DNA of 39,425 nucleotides from Campylobacteraceae bacterium. GTDB taxonomy: Bacteria > Campylobacterota > Campylobacteria > Campylobacterales > Sulfurovaceae. Below the pieces are notes generated by a model. That model did not search any database, was not told the DNA's origin, and worked only from the letters and a program-made list of their open reading frames with translations. The stretch is taken from positions 1 through 39,425 of the forward strand of contig JALVXC010000103.1 in assembly GCA_027038275.1 (NCBI GenBank). Direction: 5' to 3'. The position numbers and the translations under genes are program-made. Below, one piece after another: positions 23,956-39,425 of this stretch (the stretch's first letter is position 1; every line of letters starts with the position of its first letter).

Positions 23956-25269
23956 CTACTTGTTTTTTGTAATCATTAAAGCTCTAAGAATGTCAATCCC
24001 TGATTTTAACTGAGAGTCTTTATATATCTGCTCTTCTGTTATAACAGTTTTATCTTTGTTCTCTTCTACTTTATCTTTTTTACCATCTACTTTTTGAAGC
24101 TCACTCTCAAGATGTCTTCGTAAATCTTTCTCTTTAATGGAGATTCCCTCTTCTGCTTTTTTAATCTCACCATAAGAGACCTCAACATCTGGAGTTACTC
24201 CAACAGCTTGAATTGTTCGTCCACTTGGTAGGTAGTAACGAGCAATAGTTAAACGTAGAGCTTCATCTTCATTAACAGGCATGACTACTTGTACAGAGCC
24301 TTTACCAAAAGTCTTTTCACCTACAATAACAGCTCGTTTATGGTCTTGTAGAGCACCTGAGACAATCTCTGAAGCAGAGGCTGAACCACCATTTACTAGC
24401 ACAACTATAGGAGTTTTTGTATCAGTATTTGGAGCAGTTGCATTGTAGACTAAGTTTTCAGAAGGAATTTTACCTTTTTGGCTAACTATTGGACCACTAT
24501 CTACAAACATATCAACTACACCAATAGCTTGATTAAGAAGACCACCTGGATTGTTTCTTAAGTCAATAATAATCCCTTTTGTATTTGGATGTTTTCTAAT
24601 GGCTTTTTTCATACTCTGTACTACCTTTTGGTCAAAAGAGGTAATACGTAGGTAGAGAATATCATCACCAATGGTTTTTGCATAGACAGACTGTATCTCT
24701 ATAATGTCTCTAACAATTTTGATTTTTAGAGGATGAGACTCACCTTTTCTTACAATAGTTAGCATAATCTCTGTATTTGGTTTTCCTCGCATAAGTGATA
24801 CAGCTTTATCTATGGTCATTCCAATAGTTGCTTGGTCATTGATTTTTAAAATAATATCACCAGCTTTGATTCCAGCTTTATCAGCAGGTGTTCCCTCTAG
24901 TGGTGCAATAACTGTTAAAGCTCCATCTCTCATACCGACAGTAATCCCAAGTCCACCAAACTCCCCATGTGTTTGAACCTGTAGCTCTTTGGTCTCTTTT
25001 GCATCCATAAAAGATGAGTGAGCATCAAGATTGGCAAGTAACCCTTTTAGTGCTTTATCAATAATATCTGAAGCATTAATATCATCTACATACTGGTCTT
25101 CTATAATCTGTACAATTTTTGTAAACTTTAAATAGGCCTGTAGTTTTGAAGTCTCTTCAGTTTGTGTTTCATAACTATTGGCTTGTGCAGAGCTTGTTGT
25201 AAGAATGACTGAGGCAGTTATGGTGGATATAAAGCCCAATAAGATTGCTTTTTTGTTTTTTATTATCAT
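23956..25269 (-). CDS. ctpA: carboxy-terminal processing protease, S41 family
   Basis: The periplasmic serine protease cleaves near the C-termini of exported proteins. It has a signal peptide (about 1-30, ...SSAQANS), a helical start, a PDZ domain (about 100-180, FGGLGITVGMRDGALTVIAPLEGTPADKAGIKAGD) and the S41 catalytic core. The nucleophile lies in NGGSASASEI (293-302), with the general base K323 in TFGKGSVQ. The C-terminus is Lys/Glu-rich. At 437 aa it is normal. It is the first gene of the seven-gene ctpA-purCSQ-SH3-plsC operon and is divergent from clpB. Confidence 0.95.
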   Translation of the reverse strand: MIIKNKKAILLGFISTITASVILTTSSAQANSYETQTEETSKLQAYLKFTKIVQIIEDQYVDDINASDIIDKALKGLLANLDAHSSFMDAKETKELQVQTHGEFGGLGITVGMRDGALTVIAPLEGTPADKAGIKAGDIILKINDQATIGMTIDKAVSLMRGKPNTEIMLTIVRKGESHPLKIKIVRDIIEIQSVYAKTIGDDILYLRITSFDQKVVQSMKKAIRKHPNTKGIIIDLRNNPGGLLNQAIGVVDMFVDSGPIVSQKGKIPSENLVYNATAPNTDTKTPIVVLVNGGSASASEIVSGALQDHKRAVIVGEKTFGKGSVQVVMPVNEDEALRLTIARYYLPSGRTIQAVGVTPDVEVSYGEIKKAEEGISIKEKDLRRHLESELQKVDGKKDKVEENKDKTVITEEQIYKDSQLKSGIDILRALMITKNK

Positions 25270-28557: not shown

Positions 28558-29019
28558 TTACATATCTAAATACCGAATCAATCCCTTAGTTAACCTATCA
28601 AACTTCAATATCTTAGTCCCCCCATTTTTAAGCATAAATAGCTTTGCATTGTCCATATTTTCAAATGGTATTAAGTCATCTCCGTGTGGTCCTACTATGT
28701 GACTTCCAAACAGATAGACAGCCTCTTTTGCATCTACTTTGCGTCCACTTGTAAAGTCTTGAACTGACATTTTAGTAATGTTTGCATCTATAAATTTGTG
28801 TTTTTTAAAGTATTTTTGGTGTTGGTAGACTGTCATTAGTGATTTTACCGATACAAACTGAACCTTTTTGCCATTTTTTAATTCTGCTTCGGTTAGCCAT
28901 TTTGGGTACTTTTTTAGTGGTAACAGATAGACTGCGTCTGTTGCGTTTTGGTCTATTAGTTTTATATCTCCTGCTAGTAGACCGTGGGTTAGTAGTGCTA
29001 GTATTAGAAGTTTTTTCAT
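28558..29019 (-). CDS. NosL-like protein lacking cysteines, last gene of the nos cluster
   Basis: The 153-aa protein has a signal peptide (1-16, MKKLLILALLTHGLLAG) and a NosL-type core: KYPKWLTEAELKNGKKVQFVSVKSLMTVYQHQKYF, VQDFTSGRKVDAKEAVYLFGSHIVGPHGDDLIPF and LFMLKNGGTKILKFDRLTKGL. NosL proteins normally bind Cu(I) through a Cys-containing motif near the N-terminus. This one has no cysteine at all; the position before KYPKW reads VYLLPLK. Possible replacement ligands are the Met and His residues (KMSVQ, GSHIVGPHG). It lies 11 nt after nosY with TAAGGA before its ATG, so it is in the operon. It may aid NosZ maturation without binding copper in the usual way. Confidence 0.7.
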   Translation of the reverse strand: MKKLLILALLTHGLLAGDIKLIDQNATDAVYLLPLKKYPKWLTEAELKNGKKVQFVSVKSLMTVYQHQKYFKKHKFIDANITKMSVQDFTSGRKVDAKEAVYLFGSHIVGPHGDDLIPFENMDNAKLFMLKNGGTKILKFDRLTKGLIRYLDM

Positions 29020-29030
29020 TTTTTTGTTCC

Positions 29031-29858
29031 TTAAATCAAATCTTTTTTTCTAAATGCCAAATATCCAAATAGTGCAAATAGCCCACCAATAATTATTGGG
29101 TAGATTATAGCATAAACAATAAGTAAAGTTGTACCTAATGTATCTAACAGATAGTAGGCAACAGGTCCAATTACTGTTAATTCAGGGTCAAATAGGCTAA
29201 TAGCTCCTATTCTAAATACCTCTATGGGATTTAACATTGCAAAGATTAAGATTACATTGTCATCTACTCTATTTTGAAGCATAAGACCAATAAGTGCTAT
29301 ATCTATAAAGGCTAAAAGAAGTATCCAAACGACAAATGAGCTACCAAGTGCAATATCGGTTGATTTTACAATAGAGGAGAGAAAAAAAGCTACTCCTAAA
29401 AAGGTAAAACAGAGTGAAAAGAGTAGTATAGAGTATAGGAAAATAATACCCCAAGGTAGGCTGCCACCTTTACTTAAACCAAATATTACTCCCATAATAA
29501 GAGCTAAAAAGACAGGCATAAATACTGTAATAAAACGTCCTAACATTTTGCCCCAATAGTACTCTTTTAAAGAGATAGGAAAAGAGAGCATATACTCCAA
29601 GACATTACTCTCTCTGTCTCCTGAGATTGATTTTACCGTTGTTATAAGTATAAATATTGGTAAAATTATAATTGTTACTTGTATGAAAATCAGTAACATT
29701 CTACTAAGTCCTGTAAATCCCATTACTACTGCATCTGAGATACCTGTAATAAAAAAAAGAGCCATCAATCCACCAAAAACAAGGCTATATACATAAAACC
29801 ATTTTGAGCGAAGTGACTCTTTTATGTCTAAGTAGGCTATTAAAAATATATTTTTCAT
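29031..29858 (-). CDS. nosY: NosY, ABC-2 type membrane permease of the Nos copper-site assembly system
   Basis: The 275-aa protein has six to seven membrane helices and the ABC-2 pattern: SLRSKWFYVYSLVFGGL at the N-terminus, SGDRESNVLEYMLSFPISLKEYYWGK in the first cytoplasmic region, and FLGVAFFLSSIVKSTDIALGSSFVVWILL. With NosF and NosD it supports assembly of the CuZ [4Cu:2S] centre of NosZ; a sulfur-containing species or energy transfer is thought to be involved. Its ATG overlaps the stop of the preceding NosL gene by 4 nt (ATGA). Confidence 0.92.
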   Translation of the reverse strand: MKNIFLIAYLDIKESLRSKWFYVYSLVFGGLMALFFITGISDAVVMGFTGLSRMLLIFIQVTIIILPIFILITTVKSISGDRESNVLEYMLSFPISLKEYYWGKMLGRFITVFMPVFLALIMGVIFGLSKGGSLPWGIIFLYSILLFSLCFTFLGVAFFLSSIVKSTDIALGSSFVVWILLLAFIDIALIGLMLQNRVDDNVILIFAMLNPIEVFRIGAISLFDPELTVIGPVAYYLLDTLGTTLLIVYAIIYPIIIGGLFALFGYLAFRKKDLI

Positions 29859-30322
29859 TGAGTGTTAACCTTTTTTGTATTTAGCTCTTCTATCTCAAAT
29901 ACCCTCTTTTTTAGAGTTTTAAAATTGACTGTGTGGTGATTTTTTGGTAGAGTCTCTTTTGTATATGATGCAAAACCATAAGCCATAGGTGTTATAGAGT
30001 CATCTGTATAGATTGCACTTTTAGCATCTATCCATTTTCCTGTTTTGGCATCTGTAATCCAAAGTTTTATATTGTTGTCTATTGGAATTTTCTTTTCATT
30101 TAGCCAAAGTATAGTACAACCAATGTCATCAAATTTATAAGCTTTATTTCTCTTTATATCTATTGCCTCTACAGCAAATTTGCGTTCACTAATTGCCATT
30201 TTACAGCGTTCACACATATCTCTGTCCCAGTGCATCTTCTCAACTGAGCCTTTTTGTTTGGAGTTACAACCATTTAGTATAGTCAATATAAAAGCAATAA
30301 ATATAATCTTCAATATACTCAT
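29855..30322 (-). CDS. nosL: NosL copper chaperone lipoprotein
   Basis: The 155-aa lipoprotein has a signal ending in lipobox TILNGC (C19). A Cu(I)-binding motif follows: MCERCKM (residues 36-42, C37, C40, M42). The NosL core is KFAVEAIDIKRNKAYKFDDIGCTILWLNE and ...WIDAKSAIYTDDSITPMAYGFASY. It carries copper to NosZ in the periplasm. The ATG at 30322 is preferred because the signal peptide then starts directly (MSILKIIFIAF) and GAGAG lies upstream. An in-frame ATG at 30337 inside nosF adds MRDYK and is possible. The gene overlaps nosY by 4 nt. Confidence 0.88.
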   Translation of the reverse strand: MSILKIIFIAFILTILNGCNSKQKGSVEKMHWDRDMCERCKMAISERKFAVEAIDIKRNKAYKFDDIGCTILWLNEKKIPIDNNIKLWITDAKTGKWIDAKSAIYTDDSITPMAYGFASYTKETLPKNHHTVNFKTLKKRVFEIEELNTKKVNTQ

Positions 30323-30323
30323 C

Positions 30324-30965
30324 TTATAATCTCTCATCTTCTACAATCTTACCAAGTTCCATATAGATTTTTCTGTTTACTAGAGGCTCTATTTCATCTA
30401 AACGGTGAGTTATATAGATGGTCGAACAACTCTCGTCTATTTCGCTTAAGAGTTCATAAAACTGCTCACGACCTTTTGGGTCTAGGTTTGCTGTTGGTTC
30501 ATCAAATATTAGTAAGTTACTCTTTTTAGAGAGAGCAATAGCAATTAGAAGCTTCTGTTTCATTCCTCCAGAGAGTTTAAAGAATGGTTTAGATAAATTT
30601 GCTTCTAAATCCAACTCCATTCTTTTAGCCTCTTTAAATATACTCTCTTGAGTAGTATTTGAGCTTTTACTTATATACTTTATTAGCTCTTCTATACTTA
30701 GCTTTATAGGTGGTGGTAGTTGAGGTATAAAGCTAATACTATTAAGTACCTCTACACGACTCTTTATGGGGTCATTGCCAAATACTTTAATATCTCCTTT
30801 GTCTAGGTGATAAAAGCCTAAAATGGCACGAACAAGAGTTGTTTTACCTGCTCCATTTGGTCCCATTAGTGCTACTCTGTCACTACTATTAATTGTTAAA
30901 TTTATGTGGTCTAGTACATACTCCCTCATAAATTTTTTAGCAATACCTTTAGCTTCTATTATCAT
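30324..30965 (-). CDS. nosF: NosF, ABC ATPase of the Nos assembly system
   Basis: The 213-aa ABC ATPase partners NosY. Motifs: Walker A GPNGAGKTT, Q-loop FIPQLPPP, signature LSGGMKQK, Walker B LLIFDEPTANLD and H-loop ITHRLDE. The short length, the signature and its place between nosH and nosL/nosY identify NosF. Its ATG overlaps the nosH stop by 4 nt. Confidence 0.93.
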   Translation of the reverse strand: MIIEAKGIAKKFMREYVLDHINLTINSSDRVALMGPNGAGKTTLVRAILGFYHLDKGDIKVFGNDPIKSRVEVLNSISFIPQLPPPIKLSIEELIKYISKSSNTTQESIFKEAKRMELDLEANLSKPFFKLSGGMKQKLLIAIALSKKSNLLIFDEPTANLDPKGREQFYELLSEIDESCSTIYITHRLDEIEPLVNRKIYMELGKIVEDERL

Positions 30966-31873
30966 ACTAAATCTTTTAATCTAAACTCATACTCATAAGC
31001 ATCTGTATGGCAAACATCAAAACATCTACCACAAAGTGTACAGTCTCCATTTATAACAAGCTGTGTAGTAATGCCTTTCTCTTTTCTCTCTTTATCATGT
31101 TTTGGTTTTGTAAACTCTATGACATGTTCTTCAAAACAGGCACTTAGACATGCTCCACAGTGGTCACACTTGTTCATGTCCCACTTTACTTTAGTCATAC
31201 TTACCCAACCCAACATATTGTAAGTAGTTCCTACAGGACAGATATATTTACACCACATTCGACGTGAAAAGAAAATCTCAAATAGTAAAACAACTATTAC
31301 CCATACAATAGCCAAACTCCAACCATAAGTTATAAAACGACTTAAAATACCAATAGGATTTATAACTTCAAATACCAAATAACCATCTATCGCAGCTCCT
31401 ATTAGAAAGATTGCCCAAAAGAAGAAACGTATATTTGGGTTAAATTTACGTTCTTTTATTATCTTTTTACGCACAAGTTTCATGTGAATGTATTCACCAA
31501 TTTCACTTAGTAATCCATAGGGGCAGACCCAAGAGCAGTAGGCTTTACCTCCAACTAAAAAGTAAAATACAATTAGAGTAGCACTACCAATAATTACATT
31601 GGTATGAATGTGATGTTCTCCTGCAAAAATCTCTAGTGCAGTAAATGGGTCAATTAGGTGAAAACCTAAAAGCCTAGAGCCATTTAGTGTACCCTCTAAA
31701 AATTGAAAATCTATAGCAAATGATAGAAAAAAGAGTAGATTTATGGTTATGATACTAATCCAACGCCAAGCTCTTATTGTAAGTCTCTTTTTTCCTTTTT
31801 TATTTGTATAAAAAAAGGTAGAGAAAAAAGAGCTACTAAGTAACTCTTTAACAGTTGCACTATACTTATCCAT
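30962..31873 (-). CDS. nosH: NosH, membrane iron-sulfur quinol dehydrogenase (NapH-like)
   Basis: The 303-aa protein has four or more membrane helices. Two CxxxCP motifs lie at the membrane faces (C113/C117 in CSWVCPYG; C208/C212 in CKYICPVG). Two [4Fe-4S] ferredoxin motifs follow in the cytoplasmic C-terminus: C236/C239/C242/C246 and C278/C281/C284/C288. Like NapH, it is thought to take electrons from menaquinol and pass them to NosG. GGGAG precedes the ATG, and the gene lies 10 nt after nosC2. Confidence 0.92.
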   Translation of the reverse strand: MDKYSATVKELLSSSFFSTFFYTNKKGKKRLTIRAWRWISIITINLLFFLSFAIDFQFLEGTLNGSRLLGFHLIDPFTALEIFAGEHHIHTNVIIGSATLIVFYFLVGGKAYCSWVCPYGLLSEIGEYIHMKLVRKKIIKERKFNPNIRFFFWAIFLIGAAIDGYLVFEVINPIGILSRFITYGWSLAIVWVIVVLLFEIFFSRRMWCKYICPVGTTYNMLGWVSMTKVKWDMNKCDHCGACLSACFEEHVIEFTKPKHDKERKEKGITTQLVINGDCTLCGRCFDVCHTDAYEYEFRLKDLV

Positions 31874-31883
31874 AATCGACTCC

Positions 31884-32417
31884 CTATTTAGTAGCTTCGT
31901 CTAGCTTAGTTTTAAATGTAGAAATCTCATTTGCTAATTCTTCTAGTTGAGAGTCATTTAAATTACCAAGTAATCCATACATTACATAGTTTTTACGTTT
32001 TCCACTCTTAAAATCTTTTAGAGCTTTTAATATATACTCTTTATCTTGACCTATTAGTTTTGGTCCAATAATCCCTTGTCCAATATTTCCATGGCAAGAG
32101 GCACAACTCTTTTTATATAGAGTACTAGTTTTAAATGCACCTATATTTCCAGCTTTCTCTTTAAGTGCCTTTATCTTGTTTGCTACTTCATCATCTTGTT
32201 GAGTGTTAATCTCTTTTGTACTCTCTTGTTTAGTAGTTGTGATTTGGCTTGTTCCATTGGTATGTGTTTGTACTTTAATCTTACTATCTTCCATAGCTGT
32301 AGATTTAATTAATTTAGATATATTATCGAGTTTATTTACCTCTTTATCTAAACCAATCATATAGACTGTTGCCCAAACTACTAGTAGTGTTGCTATTATT
32401 GCAATTATGTGTTTCAT
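31884..32417 (-). CDS. nosC2: NosC2, monohaem c-type cytochrome
   Basis: The 177-aa cytochrome has an N-terminal membrane anchor or signal (about 3-22), a long Thr/Gln-rich linker (about 40-80) and a class I cytochrome c domain. CASCH (105-109) is followed by GNIGQGIIGPKLIGQDKEYILKAL and a distal methionine in NYVMYGLLGNL. It belongs to the pair NosC1/NosC2 in clade II nos clusters, presumed to carry electrons from NosG/H to the haem domain of NosZ. Its ATG overlaps the nosC1 stop by 4 nt; GAGGAG lies upstream. Confidence 0.9.
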   Translation of the reverse strand: MKHIIAIIATLLVVWATVYMIGLDKEVNKLDNISKLIKSTAMEDSKIKVQTHTNGTSQITTTKQESTKEINTQQDDEVANKIKALKEKAGNIGAFKTSTLYKKSCASCHGNIGQGIIGPKLIGQDKEYILKALKDFKSGKRKNYVMYGLLGNLNDSQLEELANEISTFKTKLDEATK

Positions 32418-32983
32418 TTTTCTCTCCTCATCTTTAGTATCTCTTTGTTAAAGTTTGCTATCTCATTTGCAATAGATTTAAGTTTTTTATCATCTATCTG
32501 AGATATAAGCTCTTTCATTAGAACGTTTTTCTTTTTTCCACTTTTAAACTCCATTATCCTATTATAGATAAATTCACTATCTTTACCCAATAGAGATGGA
32601 CCAATTACACCATTTGCATAGTCATCATGACAAGGAGAACATCTAATAATATAGTCATTACTAAGCCTCTTTATCATCATTGTTATTCTAACTTTTTCAT
32701 AAGGTGAGCGAATATTCAAATAGGCATCTATGGTTGTTCTTATTTTTGTATCATTGGAGTTATAGGTACTGTTTTTCTCTTTGTTATAAGAGTAGTAAAA
32801 CTGTCCACTATTCTCTTCTGATTTCTTTTTATCAACTTTTGTATTGACTGCATTTTGGGTTACTACAATCTTAGGTTCAGATGCTTGAGTTGCTTTGTTA
32901 TTTTCACTCTCTTTGTCACTACTACCACAACCTACAATAATTAGCGTAGTGCATATTATAGATATAGTTTTAACCCTACGCAT
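32414..32983 (-). CDS. nosC1: NosC1, monohaem c-type cytochrome lipoprotein
   Basis: The 189-aa product has a lipoprotein signal with lipobox IIVGC (C19), a polar linker of about 60 residues, and a cytochrome c domain with CSPCH (115-119) followed by DDYANGVIGPSLLGKDSEFIYNRI. It resembles NosC2 in the haem region and probably arose with it by duplication. The start is the ATG at 32983, where AAGGA lies seven bases upstream inside the end of nosG (8-nt overlap). An in-frame start at 33013 is rejected because it would put ten residues before the signal. Confidence 0.88.
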   Translation of the reverse strand: MRRVKTISIICTTLIIVGCGSSDKESENNKATQASEPKIVVTQNAVNTKVDKKKSEENSGQFYYSYNKEKNSTYNSNDTKIRTTIDAYLNIRSPYEKVRITMMIKRLSNDYIIRCSPCHDDYANGVIGPSLLGKDSEFIYNRIMEFKSGKKKNVLMKELISQIDDKKLKSIANEIANFNKEILKMRREK

Positions 32984-33764
32984 TGCTCTTTCCTTTTTTA
33001 TAAATTTGCTCATAAGTAGCTCTTGGCATTATATTTAATACTTGTGTTGGGCAAAGCTCTACACAAGCTCCACACCCAACACAGGCATCTCTAATTTCAG
33101 GCACTAATCCCTCTTCTTTTTTTACCATACCAATAGCTAAAGATGGGTCTGGAGTATATGGACACATATCAGCACATATCGTACACTCTTTATCTCTAAA
33201 CTTCTCTAAATTTTCTAATACCTTTTTTTGTAGCTCTTGCTTTTCGCTTTCGTTTCCTGTTATTTCGACTTTATGATTTGCTTTTTCACTTGAAGATATT
33301 ACTTTTGTATGCTCATAGATTCTATCTATGGCACTATCTGGTACTTTTTTATTGGTTAGAGCTAAACAAGCACTCTCATTGATCACAACTGCCATTCCCA
33401 TATGGACATATTTTAACTCATCTTTTTCATGGTCTAATGCTCCTGTTGGACATGCCAAGATACAAGGAAAAGCAGAGCATAAATAACAACCTCTATCAAA
33501 AGGATTTATGTAAGCCATACCCATACTTGCTTTACCATCTATATCTTCTAGCTTTATAGAGTCGTAAGGACACACTTGTAGACACTGCCCACATTTGATA
33601 CAGAGTTTTAAAAAGTCATCTTCATCTACAGCCCCAGGTGGTCTAAGTAGTAGTTTGTCAGCTTTTAGTTTAGGTGCAAAGAAAATCCCAGCTCCTGAAG
33701 CTAGTGCTACAATACTAAAACCACCAGCACTTTTTAAAAAGTTTCGTCTCTTTTTATCTTCCAT
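32976..33764 (-). CDS. nosG: NosG, periplasmic ferredoxin-type iron-sulfur protein (NapG-like)
   Basis: The 262-aa protein has a twin-arginine signal (KRRNFLKSAGG, residues 5-15). It has four [4Fe-4S] cysteine groups: CIKCGQCLQVCP (55-66), CYLCSAFPCILACP, CTICADMCP and CVGCGACVELCP. Like NapG it accepts electrons from the membrane partner NosH and hands them to cytochromes. Tat export suits a protein that folds with its clusters in the cytoplasm. AAGGA precedes the ATG, which lies 11 nt inside the end of nosD. Confidence 0.93.
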   Translation of the reverse strand: MEDKKRRNFLKSAGGFSIVALASGAGIFFAPKLKADKLLLRPPGAVDEDDFLKLCIKCGQCLQVCPYDSIKLEDIDGKASMGMAYINPFDRGCYLCSAFPCILACPTGALDHEKDELKYVHMGMAVVINESACLALTNKKVPDSAIDRIYEHTKVISSSEKANHKVEITGNESEKQELQKKVLENLEKFRDKECTICADMCPYTPDPSLAIGMVKKEEGLVPEIRDACVGCGACVELCPTQVLNIMPRATYEQIYKKGKSNA

Positions 33765-34977
33765 TATTTTTTCCTTCTATTATTTTAGGGTGTCTATCTG
33801 TCAATAGAACTATAGGTTCAGAGATTGGTGCTACTTTTGCCATAAAGTTTAATATTGAAATTACAGGTGAGCCATAAAAAAACTTGGCATTTGGGTTCAA
33901 CATCCAAATCTTATCGGCATAGTAGTAGACTTGGTAGGGTGTATCTCCTATTCCGTCTCTATCTCTGTCAAAACCTTCATAGTCACCCCAGTAGTTACCA
34001 TCCCACTCATTTTGAGTAACTTTTGTATTGTAGGAGTCATTTACTACACTCTCAATATTTCCTTTAATTGTATTACCTTTAAAGACATTATGTAGACTCA
34101 ATGAGTGAAAATGTACCCCTTCACTATTGTATAAAATGAGATTATTGCTAATATAATTTTTAGTCTCAGGTTCAAAGGGTGACCTATCTATGTAGAGTCC
34201 CCTTGCGTTGTATAGAATCTTATTGTTTTTAATAGTATAGTTTGAGCAGTCTTTAAGCCCAATACCTAAACCAGTAGTTCCAATAGAGTTTTCTATGGTA
34301 TTACCTATTGCTACTGTATCTTTAGAGTACATAAAAAATATCCCTACACTATTGTGTTTAAAGGTATTGTTCTTTACAATATTTTTACCTGTATACATAA
34401 AGTGCAAAGAGTATCTTCCATACTCACCATAATTATCTGCAATTAAGTTTCCATGTGAATACCAAACTACAAAATCTCGTGACTTTGTTATGTAGTTATG
34501 TGTTAGAGTATTATCTACACTATACCAAAGTCTAATGGCATCTCCACGCAAACCAAGTTCAAATGGTTTAGATGTTATAAAGTTTTTACTTATGTTAGAG
34601 TCATGAACCTCTTGTAAATCAATACCAAAAAGTACATCTTCTAAATGACAATCTATAATATTGCAGTGGTGTGCCTTTTTTATGGCTACTCCTGCATCTA
34701 CTCTTTCATGCTCTGCTCCACTACCTCTAATAGTTAAGTTTTTAAGAGTTACAAAAGGACTTGTAATAGTCACAACTGTTCCATTATTGTCACCCTCTAT
34801 AAAAGTCTTTTTACTCTGCCCCTCTATTATTAGTGGCTTATTAATGATAATATTACCTTTATAGATTCCATTTGGTAGTTGTAGTTTTGAGCCACTTTTT
34901 GCATTGTCAATAGCATCTTGCAATATATTTGCATTTGATACTACTGTTATGGCAAAAAGTAAGAGTAGGGCTTTCAT
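33754..34977 (-). CDS. nosD: NosD, periplasmic right-handed beta-helix protein for CuZ assembly
   Basis: The 407-aa protein has a signal peptide (1-17) and a chain of parallel beta-helix repeats of the NosD/CASH type (for example ITSPFVTLKNLTIRGSG, HCNIIDCHLEDVLFGIDLQE, NYTIKNNKILYNARGLYIDRSPFE). The NosD end segment EWDGNYWGDYEGFDRDRDGIGDTPYQ is present. It delivers a sulfur or copper component to NosZ with NosF and NosY. It lies 8 nt after nosB and overlaps nosG by 11 nt. Confidence 0.93.
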   Translation of the reverse strand: MKALLLLFAITVVSNANILQDAIDNAKSGSKLQLPNGIYKGNIIINKPLIIEGQSKKTFIEGDNNGTVVTITSPFVTLKNLTIRGSGAEHERVDAGVAIKKAHHCNIIDCHLEDVLFGIDLQEVHDSNISKNFITSKPFELGLRGDAIRLWYSVDNTLTHNYITKSRDFVVWYSHGNLIADNYGEYGRYSLHFMYTGKNIVKNNTFKHNSVGIFFMYSKDTVAIGNTIENSIGTTGLGIGLKDCSNYTIKNNKILYNARGLYIDRSPFEPETKNYISNNLILYNSEGVHFHSLSLHNVFKGNTIKGNIESVVNDSYNTKVTQNEWDGNYWGDYEGFDRDRDGIGDTPYQVYYYADKIWMLNPNAKFFYGSPVISILNFMAKVAPISEPIVLLTDRHPKIIEGKNNGR

Positions 34978-34985
34978 TGTATGTT

Positions 34986-35780
34986 CTACTCTTTATTCTT
35001 TTCTTGCTCTAATCGTCTAGCTTTTTTCTTAGAGATTATAGCAAAAAGACTAAATATACTAATAGCTATAAGTATCCAAAAACCTGTTGTTGGGTAGGAG
35101 TGTGTAGTAAATTGAGCTACCTTTCCATCTCCAAATACAGTTGGCATAAATGGTTTTATACTAAAAGCACCCCATTTGTGCATATGGTGTCCAAACCAGT
35201 AGAGCCAATATGTATAAAATCCTAAAAATATAAAAGGCAGTGCAACAGGAATTAGCATTAACCAGTCTAGTATCTTAGAGTCATATATCATATATAGTAC
35301 AAGAAGTAGAGCAACAAATAGTAATGCATAAGGTGCTAATGCTCTTAAATATGGAGCTCCTCTCTTCATTGGGTCCATTCCAATAAAGTGGTTAATCGTA
35401 TTCATCTCATGTACATCACCACTAAATCCATCAAAGTGGTAATATACAGGAATACCATTTGGAAAAGCATCTTTAGGATAGTTTGGAGCTTCGAGTGCTA
35501 CATACCAAATTGGCATAGTAGCTACACTTATCTCCATATCATCATCTATAAGCTTTTTTAAGTCACCTGCATCCTCTTTTGGAATGTTTGGACTTTTGTA
35601 TCTGCCTTTATTATAAAAGTTCCAAGTGTTTATAGTCAGGCTAGATATTTTATCTGCTTTACCCTCTTCATTTAGTTCTACAACATTGTGAGTTAAGACT
35701 GCTGGTATTACATAAGCATACATCAGTAGAGCAAATGCAATAAATGCAAAGATTTTAGACTTCAATTTAGAGCTGTTCAT
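34986..35780 (-). CDS. nosB: NosB, membrane protein of clade II nos clusters
   Basis: The 264-aa protein has four hydrophobic segments: near residues 9-30, 150-166, 171-197 and about 230-250. A periplasmic loop of about 110 residues lies between the first and second (KSPNIPKEDAGDLKKLIDDDMEISVATMPIW...). Genes of this kind follow nosZ in Wolinella-type clusters, and the role is unknown. GGGG six bases before the ATG supports the start. It is separated from nosZ by 110 bp that contain two strong hairpins. Confidence 0.8.
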   Translation of the reverse strand: MNSSKLKSKIFAFIAFALLMYAYVIPAVLTHNVVELNEEGKADKISSLTINTWNFYNKGRYKSPNIPKEDAGDLKKLIDDDMEISVATMPIWYVALEAPNYPKDAFPNGIPVYYHFDGFSGDVHEMNTINHFIGMDPMKRGAPYLRALAPYALLFVALLLVLYMIYDSKILDWLMLIPVALPFIFLGFYTYWLYWFGHHMHKWGAFSIKPFMPTVFGDGKVAQFTTHSYPTTGFWILIAISIFSLFAIISKKKARRLEQEKNKE

Positions 35781-35890: not shown

Positions 35891-38494
35891 TTAGAATAGA
35901 TTTGCGTTTTTCTCTATCCATTTTAGATACTCTACAATATCTTTAATCTGTTCATCACTCATACCTTGGTTAGGCATTCGTAGATTAAAGTAGTTAATCA
36001 TAGATTTTACGTAAGCATCATCATACTTACTCTTAGGGTCTTTAATAAAGTCTGCAACCCATTTTTCACCGTTTTCATGTCTTTGTAAAACACCTGTTAA
36101 GTCAGGGCCAGAAGATACTTTACCAATAACGTGACATCCACCACATCCACCTTCTTTAAATGCCTCTTCACCTTTTTTTACAGTTTCATTCATAGGTGTT
36201 GCAATTTTCTTAACAAGTAGGTCTTTTGCTCTAATACCAACATCGGCTGTCTTAACCATATATTGCCAAATCATATTTTCAAACAAAATAGCTTTATTTA
36301 AATCACCTGCTTTTACAGCCTCATCAGATTTTTTCTTCTGCTCTGCAATTTTGCCATATTGGTCAAGTGCATCTACAACTAAGTTTTTAACAACAGGGTA
36401 TTTTTCATAATGGTTAGTTTTTAAGAACTTAACAACACTCTGAATAACTGCATCTGTTGCTTTGTTTGTAGCTACAGTTTTGTCATACTCTTTTTTAAGT
36501 TGTTCTGGAGACATTTTTGCCATTTTTAACTTAGTAGCAGATGTATATTTTTTATTAGGGTCTTTAACAAGCAAGTAACCCATCATCTCTAAGTGTAGTG
36601 CAGAACAGAACTCTGTACAGTAGTAAGGGAATATACCCTCTCTATCAGCTTTAAATGTAAGAGCAACGGTTTTACCAGGTTCTAATGATGCGTGAACATT
36701 ATAGTGGTCAACTGTAAATCCATGTGTTTCATCTTCTGCACGTTCTAAGTTAGTTAAGTAGAATGTTACGGTATCACCTTTGTTTACAGTTACATGTTCT
36801 GGGTTAATATGGCTTCTAACCATTGTTCCATAAACATAAACATGGTTACCTTTTCTAACAATCTTCTCTTGACCAGCTAAAGTTTTACCTACATGAGTTT
36901 TACCTGTAAATGGATTTATTCCCATTTTATATCTTACATGAGTATGTAATTTACTCGCTCTAATAGCAACTGCTTGGTGAGGTTCTCCTAGAGGAATTGG
37001 CATATCATAAAGAAGTTGCATCTTTTTACCACGAATATCAATTAGCTGATGGTTTTGTGGGTGCAATGGTCCAATTTCGTTAAATCTGTCAATTGCCAAT
37101 TTGTTAAGTGCTATAATATAATCACCTTGTGGGTCTTCAGATTTTCCTTCCATACCACAAAGGTGACCAATATTATAGTTAACATTTTGTCTATCTTTAA
37201 CTTTACAAGTTAAGTAGTCCCATTTTACAACTTGACTATCAACGTAGAGTGAAGTATATATCTCACCATCTGTTTTCCATTTTGACCCAAATTGGTTATG
37301 TAATGGTCCTAAGCCCAACTCTGCTTGACATAGCATCGCTTTTTTCATATCTAAAATAGGAATACCATAAGGGTCTTTTCCTGCATAGGTATGATTTTTA
37401 ATTAACTCTTTGATTTTATCCCAACTATATACTGTTGCATGAGTATCAAGTTTACCACAAACTACAATATATTTACCATCAGGAGAGACATCAACACCGT
37501 GTGGAGATTTTGGTTCTGGTACTAAGAATAGTGCATCGTTTTTAACTGCAACATTAATAGGTATAACTCTCATCCCATTAATAACTTTTACATTTTTAGG
37601 GTCTTTTGCAAGTTTAGCGAGTTTTTTCCAATTATATACATGTAAAAAGTCAGTGTCGTTTCTTGAACAACCAGCCTCAAATGGTGGAAGACCTTTTTCT
37701 ATACCACCAGTATACATCTCTGAGTTAAAACTGTTTGTAAATCCCCAACCTGCACTTGCCTCTTTACCTGCATCAGATAAATCTTGCATATATGGAGGCA
37801 TTTCAATCGTAAATGATTGGTTAGCATCTATTCGTCCAACTTTTGGGTCAAATTTCCATACAGTAACACCACCACGATAGGTCTCTTTAAATTCCTCCAT
37901 TGGGTGATAGTTGTTATCTAATGGTGCTCCATATTGACAAGCCTCTAAAATATGATTAGAGTTTGGTGTAAAGAATGCTCCACCGTGGTCAGATTTAAAT
38001 ACAGGGTTTACAACAATCTGTTTTGTTACAAAGTCACTTAAATCTATAACTGCAATTCTTGGATTTGCTTTGTCATTAATTACAAGCCATTTACCATCGT
38101 ATTTACCATTTGTTTCAGAGAGTGCTGGGTGGTGTGTGTCACCCCAAGTGATTTTTTTACCTCTAATATTTCCTTGTGCAAGAATCTTTTTGGTGTCATC
38201 ATCATAACCCCAACCTTGCCAAGGCTCAGGTGTAAATACACCAATATATTTTAAAATCCTCATAGATGGAACGCCATATACCATAATCTGTCCAGACTGC
38301 CCTCCTGAACTAAATACAATATACTTATCACGTCCACCACTAGGTGTATATGTTTTCGCAGCTGCTAGTAAATCTTGTTGGGTAAGATGTCTATCTTTCA
38401 TTACCTTCTCAAGTTCATTACCAGCACTACTTAACGTGACACCCATTGCTAAAATGGTTGTAACTGATAAAAAGTTTTTTACGATTGATTGCAT
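35891..38494 (-). CDS. nosZ: nitrous oxide reductase with C-terminal cytochrome c domain (clade II cNosZ)
   Basis: NosZ reduces N2O to N2 in the periplasm. The 867-aa protein has a Sec signal peptide (MQSIVKNFLSVTTILAMG), not a Tat signal, which is the clade II feature. The beta-propeller carries CuZ histidines in DHGGAF, SPHGVDVSPDGK, GPLHNQFG, LHPQNHQ and GEPHQAVA. The CuA domain has CTEFCSALHLEMMG (about 626-639). The last 100 residues form a monohaem cytochrome c, CGGCH (784-788). The start is the ATG at 38494 with AGGAG eight bases upstream; a TTG at 38533 would add 13 residues before the signal and is rejected. Regulation appears to be by an FNR-type site at 38774-38787. Confidence 0.97.
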   Translation of the reverse strand: MQSIVKNFLSVTTILAMGVTLSSAGNELEKVMKDRHLTQQDLLAAAKTYTPSGGRDKYIVFSSGGQSGQIMVYGVPSMRILKYIGVFTPEPWQGWGYDDDTKKILAQGNIRGKKITWGDTHHPALSETNGKYDGKWLVINDKANPRIAVIDLSDFVTKQIVVNPVFKSDHGGAFFTPNSNHILEACQYGAPLDNNYHPMEEFKETYRGGVTVWKFDPKVGRIDANQSFTIEMPPYMQDLSDAGKEASAGWGFTNSFNSEMYTGGIEKGLPPFEAGCSRNDTDFLHVYNWKKLAKLAKDPKNVKVINGMRVIPINVAVKNDALFLVPEPKSPHGVDVSPDGKYIVVCGKLDTHATVYSWDKIKELIKNHTYAGKDPYGIPILDMKKAMLCQAELGLGPLHNQFGSKWKTDGEIYTSLYVDSQVVKWDYLTCKVKDRQNVNYNIGHLCGMEGKSEDPQGDYIIALNKLAIDRFNEIGPLHPQNHQLIDIRGKKMQLLYDMPIPLGEPHQAVAIRASKLHTHVRYKMGINPFTGKTHVGKTLAGQEKIVRKGNHVYVYGTMVRSHINPEHVTVNKGDTVTFYLTNLERAEDETHGFTVDHYNVHASLEPGKTVALTFKADREGIFPYYCTEFCSALHLEMMGYLLVKDPNKKYTSATKLKMAKMSPEQLKKEYDKTVATNKATDAVIQSVVKFLKTNHYEKYPVVKNLVVDALDQYGKIAEQKKKSDEAVKAGDLNKAILFENMIWQYMVKTADVGIRAKDLLVKKIATPMNETVKKGEEAFKEGGCGGCHVIGKVSSGPDLTGVLQRHENGEKWVADFIKDPKSKYDDAYVKSMINYFNLRMPNQGMSDEQIKDIVEYLKWIEKNANLF

Positions 38495-38739
38495 CGCAAT
38501 ATCTCCTATTGTTTTAAAAACTAAAAAAGACAATTAATCAATTAACTTTAAACTAAAAAACGTATCTAAGCTATTTATTTAACACTTTCTTAATACTTCT
38601 AAGATACAATTTTTTAAGGTATTTAAAGATAACTATTAAATGCCACCTACTAAACTTAAAAAATAGTTTGATGGAACGTTTATATGTTCCATCTTTAGAG
38701 TGTTCAATTTAAACATTCTAAAGATGAAATAGTTTTTTT
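38495..38739 (-). promoter_or_regulatory. long nosZ leader with two adjacent hairpins
   Basis: About 245 nt separate the predicted start (near 38739) from the nosZ ATG. Stem 1 pairs 38691-38704 with 38712-38725 over a 7-nt loop (one imperfect pair). Stem 2 pairs GATGGAAC (38670-38677) with GTTCCATC (38686-38693), sharing bases with stem 1 so that the two may exclude each other. On the minus strand stem 2 is followed by AAACTATTTTTT, a possible attenuator or terminator. No gene is seen in this region. Confidence 0.45.
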
Positions 38740-38745
38740 TCATGC

Positions 38746-38751
38746 ATTTTA
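38746..38751 (-). promoter_or_regulatory. -10 box of nosZ
   Basis: Minus-strand ATATGTAAAATGC contains TAAAAT with a TG before it (extended -10). The FNR-type palindrome centre at 38780.5 is 41.5 bases upstream of the predicted start at about 38739, the standard activating distance. Confidence 0.5.
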
Positions 38752-38773
38752 CATATATTATTAAAAGTTATTA

Positions 38774-38787
38774 TTGATATAAATCAA
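38774..38787. promoter_or_regulatory. FNR/CRP-family operator upstream of nosZ
   Basis: TTGATATAAATCAA is a perfect match to the FNR consensus TTGAT-N4-ATCAA. It lies 17 bp beyond the stop of the uracil-DNA glycosylase gene. Wolinella nos genes are controlled by the CRP/FNR-type proteins NssA, NssB and NssC, so a related regulator is the likely ligand. Confidence 0.65.
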
Positions 38788-38804: not shown

Positions 38805-39425
38805 TTATAAAGTAGATAGTTTTTGAACTTTTTTTAAATCTAAAAAAATATCTCTTTTAAACGATGGATTTTTTAACAAAAAGTTAGGGTGATAGGTAGG
38901 AATAATTCTATAACTCTCTTTTTGAATTACTCTGCCCCTTATCTCTTTTAAATCTGTAAAATCATTAGTTAGGTAGTGGAATGCTCTCTCTCCAAGTGTA
39001 ACAATAACCTTAGGCTTTACCAACTCAATCTCTTTAAAAAGATAGGCTTTACAGGTGTGAAACTCGCTCTCGTGTACCTCTTTAGTTAGTAGAGGGTGAC
39101 ACTTTAGCAGATTTGTAATGTAGACTTTCTCTCGTGAGAGCTTTAAAACCTTTTCTATCATGGCTGTTAACATCTCTCCACCTCTTCCTAAAAAGATTGC
39201 TCCTGCGTTGTCTTCTATCTCTAGTGGAACATCTCCAACAAACATAATATCTGCTTGTGGATTTCCCTCTCCAAAGACTACATGGTTACGACCTTTACTC
39301 AAAGAGCAGAGGTGACAGTTTTGTGCCTGTTTTTTTAGAGCTTGTATAGAGTTTGGTAGCTCTAAAAGCTCTCTCTCTTCATGCGAGTAGGGCTTTTCAT
39401 TTGTATATCTGTAGCCTAAGTTTTT
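38805..39425 (-). CDS. uracil-DNA glycosylase family protein, type 4-like, 5' end beyond the window
   Basis: The frame runs from the stop at 38805 to the right edge of the window without a start that fits the family, so the gene is cut. Upstream codons read NLGYRYTNEKPYSHEERELL, then QAQNCHLCSLSKGR. The first two of four cluster cysteines are therefore CHLC, and the others are in LKCHP and HTCKAY, consistent with a [4Fe-4S] type-4 enzyme. Other motifs are GDVPLEIEDNAGAIFLGRGGEML (active-site loop), VYITNLLKC, KVIVTLGERAFHYL and IPTYHPNFLLKNP. It removes uracil from DNA. A TTG at 39302 would give a shorter frame lacking the CHLC pair and is not the start. Confidence 0.88.
   Translation of the reverse strand, partial: KNLGYRYTNEKPYSHEERELLELPNSIQALKKQAQNCHLCSLSKGRNHVVFGEGNPQADIMFVGDVPLEIEDNAGAIFLGRGGEMLTAMIEKVLKLSREKVYITNLLKCHPLLTKEVHESEFHTCKAYLFKEIELVKPKVIVTLGERAFHYLTNDFTDLKEIRGRVIQKESYRIIPTYHPNFLLKNPSFKRDIFLDLKKVQKLSTL

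Follow-up and report, generated by a model that had tools for sequence, protein, structure and literature searches.

Where does transcription of nosZ begin in this Campylobacteraceae bacterium, and which regulator might govern it? The clade II nosZ genes of Campylobacterota constitute a major sink for N2O at vents and in sediments, and to our knowledge their regulation has been described in few organisms of the phylum. The window, by which we mean the whole stretch of 39,425 nucleotides analysed here, carries a nosZ of this type together with accessory genes (Table 1), whose names we presume from the known epsilonproteobacterial nos order. The NosZ protein scores 858 bits against TIGR04246, above the cut-off, and the ATG at 38494 is backed by tblastn alignments that start from residue 1 in many relatives; a longer form beginning at TTG 38533, proposed by the ORF caller, is unsupported by the relatives' alignments. 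Elsewhere in the window, a match to the Rfam family Rp_sR47 (Rickettsia sRNA47) at 24257-24561 of the + strand is barely over threshold, falls within an S41-protease-like ORF on the opposite strand and is probably protein-coding sequence.

Table 1. Features of the nosZ region and intergenic operators elsewhere in the genome; positions are those of the window unless a contig is given.
Feature	Position	Strand	Basis or remark
FNR/DNR-type operator TTGATTTATATCAA	38774-38787	-	exact palindrome; kept upstream of nosZ in relatives
Extended -10 TGTAAAAT	38746-38753	-	hexamer TAAAAT 38751-38746; 22 nt after operator
Predicted transcription start P1	38739	-	predicted from 7 nt past the -10 and operator centre at -41.5
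Predicted nosZ leader, 245 nt	38495-38739	-	fold z-scores; conservation in WIN, L001, L111, L071, L220
Hairpin 1 (TTTCATCTTTAGA...TCTAAAGATGGAA)	38687-38729	-	core helix, 5 compensatory pairs in 4 sequences
Hairpin 2 (GATGGAAC-N8-GTTCCATC)	38670-38693	-	GATGGAA common to extended hairpin 1
Direct repeat TTAACAC-N4-TTAATAC, 11-bp period, OmpR/PhoB-box-like	38579-38596	+	conserved in five relatives
TACAAT, possible opposing -10	38605-38610	+	8 nt after repeat; within AAGATACAAT
nosZ, clade II (Sec-dependent) nitrous-oxide reductase, 867 aa, C-terminal cytochrome c domain	35891-38494	-	NCBIfam TIGR04246
Uracil-DNA-glycosylase-like gene	38805-39425	-	ORF; named from motifs in translation
Accessory nos genes downstream of nosZ, nosB/D/G/C/C/H/F/L/Y-like order	28558-35780	-	ORFs, translations
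Intergenic operator before SDR (short-chain dehydrogenase) gene	C6 (L081, G000:C6:64623)
Intergenic operator before sufB	C15 (L082, G000:C15:65777)
Intergenic operator between AhbAB-type siroheme decarboxylase gene and siroheme-synthase-like gene	C69:22693
Intergenic operator before small gene, then norC/norB	C69:24409
Intergenic operator before oxidase-like (PF00115) operon	C69:37380

A preliminary description of this DNA had claimed a perfect FNR-type palindrome upstream of nosZ, a minus-strand extended -10 with the operator centre 41.5 bp before the start of transcription, and a start about 245 nt before the nosZ ATG. All three are borne out by the coordinates. The operator at 38774-38787, which reads TTGATATAAATCAA on the + strand, is the sole exact TTGATN4ATCAA within the window; its centre at 38780.5 lies exactly 41.5 bp before 38739, and the extended -10 appears on the + strand (38746-38753) as ATTTTACA. 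From 38739, a predicted start, to 38494 the distance is exactly 245 nt. Both marks of a class II (-41.5) promoter are therefore present, namely a palindromic operator of the TTGATN4ATCAA type and a -10 that places its centre at -41.5. Taken by itself, the -10 hexamer is unremarkable, with several 4-5/6 matches in the AT-rich leader, and the significance lies in the fixed spacing between operator and -10, not in the hexamer. Within 200 nt of the nosZ ATG in the window, no minus-strand -10 matches at 5/6 or better. The possibility that the operator also serves a promoter facing the upstream gene was considered and rejected, the -10 match on that side being only 2/6. Operators with one mismatch show no excess in the window (2 found versus 3.9 expected), so the case is built on the perfect match, on where it lies and on its conservation.

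Conservation was assessed in upstream regions taken from 80 genome contigs that encode close NosZ, which we scanned for the operator. Most contain a site of the TTGAY-N4-RTCAA type, the variants being TTGAT in Sulfurovum/Nitratifractor-like loci, TTGACC-N2/3-GTCAA in Sulfurimonas-like loci and TTAAC/ATCAA hybrids in one clade. Sulfurimonas indica, for instance, carries a TTGACC-N3-GTCAA form at -91. Removal of near-identical promoters left 32 non-redundant Campylobacterota nosZ promoters, 22 of which have a -10 matching at least 5/6 at a gap of 22 nt, compared with 28 of 992 (2.8%) at other gaps (p ~4e-27 against this background, with residual relatedness ignored). The mean match to TATAAT is 4.34/6 at gap 22 and no higher than 2.94 at all other gaps. 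Given this conservation across relatives, the class II CRP/FNR design is thus ancestral, or at least prevalent, for nosZ in this part of Campylobacterota. For some loci, those of the Sulfurimonas type among them, the best-scoring -10 gave a few other gaps (17, 30, 33 and 37); such promoters may follow another geometry and have been kept outside the model. Directly 5' of the operator in Sulfurovum-type nosZ (L011, L018, L021, L032, L035 and L037) is a GTGTTAAATTAGTGTTAAAT direct repeat, at which a second regulator may bind.

The operator is absent from the Nitratiruptor-type nosZ upstream regions (L048-L056 and L058), and also from upstream of nosZ in L003, L024, L076, L078 and L080. The former have GTTTAAC/TTTAAC-rich sequence near the nosZ ATG, and the latter a GCGACC-N5-GCGACT-like direct repeat in place of the operator. 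The absence from these loci fits the report on Nitrosophilus labii, in which nosZ is without an exact site and TTGA-N6-TCAA is found at napA, norE and nosB, beginning 48-49 bases before the predicted starts and hence centred at -41.5/-42.5 (PMC11539149). A Crp/Fnr gene of N. labii is negatively correlated with nosZ (PMC11539149). Unlike N. labii, the bacterium studied here has an exact site at nosZ itself.

The preliminary description had also called for a genome-wide search for the same 14-mer. In the 2.54-Mb genome, a pattern search for the palindrome finds 15, compared with 5 for a control in which the palindrome pattern is read backwards; the expectation for an exact palindrome is ~0.08 per 39 kb. 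Judged by ORF layout, 6 of the 15 are intergenic and 9 are inside or inseparable from coding sequence. All six intergenic operators, that of nosZ included, have a TATAAT match of at least 5/6 at a gap of exactly 22, facing a gene, whereas operators inside genes have no comparable -10 pattern. The binomial probability for the six sites, ~3e-8 (background 28/992 at other gaps, two directions), is to be read as a guide figure, as it includes the prompting nosZ site and the 5/6 threshold was chosen after looking. At the SDR and AhbAB genes the predicted starts coincide with the ATG or lie a few bases from it, which would make these mRNAs nearly leaderless. The operator before sufB, also at gap 22, ties Fe-S assembly to the regulon of this operator.

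One could suppose that the palindrome arose by chance in AT-rich intergenic DNA, and that nosZ is reached by read-through from the uracil-DNA-glycosylase-like gene, which runs in the same direction and ends 17 bp before the operator, or from elsewhere. The base composition, this close gene end and the lack of a one-mismatch excess in the window are what such a view would predict, but conservation and fixed spacing recur at unrelated genes and in dozens of relatives with different upstream genes, and we consider a chance match scarcely credible.

Five CRP/FNR proteins were found when the genome was searched for homologues, as had also been proposed at the outset. Two have the FNR-type E-x-x-S-R helix with residues for TTGAT-type recognition, encoded on contigs C69 (PETFSR) and C84 (PETLSR) and ~35% identical to one another; the other three are without it. 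In FNR itself, E209, S212 and R213 contact TTGATN4ATCAA (PMC4505428). Neighbours of the C69 gene encode a radical-SAM protein, a siroheme methyltransferase, AhbAB, NorC, NorB and a NirS-like cytochrome, with three operators among them. Most congeners have a close orthologue, and in nearly all of these the PETFSR helix is unchanged. The DNR/NssB-like regulator (L096) combines a cNMP-binding domain (PF00027, 62.9 bits) with a helix-turn-helix (PF13545, HTH_Crp_2, 41.8 bits), the E-x-x-S-R residues and a gene location within a nir/nor cluster whose target genes are preceded by operators. An exact FNR consensus could also be expected of an oxygen-sensing [4Fe-4S] FNR proper. However, the N-terminal CX2CX5C-type cluster of FNR is absent from both helix-matched proteins, whose cysteines are at 82, 92, 218 and 221 (C69) and at 102 and 153 (C84), which makes an oxygen-sensing FNR unlikely, and Campylobacterota are reported to be without FNR orthologues (PMC6682613); together these leave FNR proper a very improbable occupant of the operator.

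The activator had been anticipated as a CRP/FNR-type protein resembling NssA/B. The class II architecture supports the first part of this claim, and an NssB/DNR-like identity is plausible, DNR/NssB-like being the fitting label. Since the nor-linked regulator of HRV44 is 50% identical to NssB (PMC11539149), the location of the C69 gene points, by analogy, to an NssB-like product. Campylobacter jejuni NssR recognises TTAAC-N4-GTTAA and has Q181 (PMC1274295), so "Nss-like" must here mean the E181 subtype; a TTGAT site and an E181 regulator are what we find, not the C. jejuni type.

In denitrifying proteobacteria, the DNR regulon has CTTGATnnnnATCAAG upstream of nirS/nirK/norB/nosZ (PMC1274295). 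The system described here shares with it the operator, target genes and a regulator of the same superfamily without the FNR cysteines, but belongs to Campylobacterota, serves a clade II nosZ and has the site at sufB and an SDR gene as well. It is likewise similar to W. succinogenes NssA/NssB/NssC and the HRV44 homologues, CRP/FNR regulators located beside nap/nor clusters (PMC11539149, PMC6682613), with which the napA, norE and nosB sites centred at -41.5/-42.5 extend the parallel. With C. jejuni NssR (TTAACnnnnGTTAA) the candidate regulator has superfamily and phylum in common, although the half-site differs and A180/Q181 of NssR are P/E here (PMC1274295). Operator sequence and -41.5 geometry are those of E. 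coli class II FNR promoters (FF-41.5 type; PMC4505428), whereas the candidate regulator, unlike E. coli FNR, is without iron-sulphur ligands.

Our preferred reading, to which we assign a probability of about 0.8, is that nosZ has a class II CRP/FNR-type promoter, with a DNR/NssB-like activator at TTGATTTATATCAA and a start at ~38739. Directly visible in the sequence are the operator, the -10, their spacing and conservation, the regulon-wide geometry and a regulator with matching recognition residues. In response to low oxygen and N-oxides or NO, a dimeric regulator, most likely the protein of the C69 nirS-norCB cluster and alternatively the NssA-like paralogue on C84, would bind the operator. 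Positioned at -41.5, it would contact RNA polymerase and recruit it to the extended -10 with no need of a -35 box, and nosZ would be transcribed from P1. The same protein and geometry would drive norCB, the heme-d1 genes, the oxidase-like operon, sufB and one SDR gene, and in this clade the nosZ transcript would begin with a structured leader of 245 nt. Against this reading stand the negative correlation in N. labii and the operator-less Nitratiruptor-type nosZ, and, as set out below, the long leader, the conserved element at 38579-38610 and an intact unit in a genome without nosZ (G055).

From operator to ATG the distance is 70-150 nt in most relatives, compared with 293 here, 317 in L001 and 415 in L071; given the short leaders of most relatives, a leader of 245 nt is particular to this clade. 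Alignment of five sequences (the window, WIN, with L001, L111, L071 and L220) reveals a conserved unit that runs, in order, operator, -10, hairpin 1, hairpin 2, a variable hairpin that WIN and L001 do not have, a third helix, ATTGTATCTT and a direct repeat, GTRTTAA-N4-GTRTTAA on the nosZ strand, at which conservation stops. The predicted leader of the window folds better than shuffled sequences, with z = -5.5 for the first 110 nt and z = -6.1 for 38739-38600. The arms of hairpin 2, GATGGAA and TTCCATC, are invariant in the aligned leaders, and GATGGAA can pair either with an upstream TTTCATC, which extends hairpin 1, or with the downstream TTCCATC of hairpin 2; these pairings are mutually exclusive, and the two states are within 1.5 kcal/mol of each other in all five relatives. 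The folding models, with four to five related sequences behind them, suggest that the leader may be bistable. In other nosZ leaders, too, a hairpin often begins only a few nt from the predicted start, which lends mild support to the position of that start.

Several other origins or functions of the leader were considered and rejected. It has no second copy in the genome, as a repeat or MITE would, and no known Rfam cis-regulatory RNA or sRNA matches it above the gathering score. Hairpin 2 is not a general binding site, GATGGAA-N6-12-TTCCATC being found once in the genome and rarely in 33 congeners. Nor do the hairpins form an intrinsic terminator on the nosZ strand, where the T-tract is displaced here and unconserved in L001, L111 and L071.

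The preliminary description had further claimed that transcription does not begin in the nearer AT-rich DNA. This claim went too far, as the conserved element at 38579-38610 leaves room for a second promoter or an opposite-strand RNA. AAGATACAAT is invariant in all five relatives, and the repeat with TACAAT looks like an OmpR-family-activated promoter aimed into the leader, away from nosZ. Only one other exact copy of the repeat is found in the genome, on C149 (L145, near 1450-1518), where TACGAT follows 8 nt on, upstream of a gene in that direction; with one mismatch the box occurs 15 times, compared with 10 for the control.

Transcription of nosZ could accordingly start at two promoters, P1 and a nosZ-proximal one in the leader, perhaps tied to the repeat at 38579-38596 and an OmpR-family response regulator, the operator then adding anaerobic induction to a basal promoter. 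The repeat is conserved in all five sequences and has a similar counterpart just 5' of the FNR operator in Sulfurovum-type nosZ promoters, yet toward nosZ there is no conserved -10 after it, conservation ends at the repeat, and the sole invariant hexamer is on its other side, aimed away from nosZ. We regard this second start as rather doubtful.

Another possibility is that the unit from operator to repeat is, or is also, an RNA gene, in which a + strand RNA antisense to the leader would run through hairpins 3, 2 and 1 from ~38617 to a T-tract near 38740. This hypothetical RNA of ~124 nt folds with z = -6.5 and ends in a terminator-like scan match (38690-38726, +), and the invariance of AAGATACAAT and the same layout at the other exact box are in keeping with it. 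Against it, L071 and L220 have a poor + strand T-tract behind hairpin 1 or none at all, the asymmetry of G-U pairs in the helices slightly favours the nosZ strand, the genome contains few copies of the box, and there is no Rfam family. In its favour, G055, a genome 97% complete in which no NosZ match is found anywhere, has the operator/leader unit complete and beside groEL (L220, G055:C35:3759-3834). In two congeners without nosZ, G018 (L113) and G025 (L112), the glycosylase gene is still present along with a remnant of the operator, which in G025 has mutated to TTGATATAAATCGA. Present without nosZ, the unit may be a relic that outlives the gene or an RNA gene of its own; G055, however, may just have lost nosZ recently, and we view an RNA gene as a tentative proposal, on the whole unlikely.

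The most far-reaching possibility, which we hold to be more speculative still, is that 38579-38787 is an autonomous riboregulatory unit, in which facing DNR-type and OmpR-type promoters would produce overlapping RNAs, a structured and perhaps bistable leader and an antisense small RNA, and which would persist as an independent gene in a relative that has no nosZ. If true, nosZ would integrate anaerobic/NO control and a two-component signal at the RNA level.

On the preferred reading of a class II CRP/FNR-type promoter, the nosZ control region is a solid further example of a known promoter type and a fairly ordinary control site; the leader unit is less expected. The analysis offers a single arrangement of operator, 22-nt gap and -10 that can be tested at nosZ and at nor/heme-d1 genes in dozens of mostly uncultured lineages, names a candidate regulator, and separates operator-bearing lineages from those of the Nitratiruptor type without the operator. 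The conserved leader unit, if transcribed, would give a first indication that nosZ is controlled at the RNA level in these bacteria.
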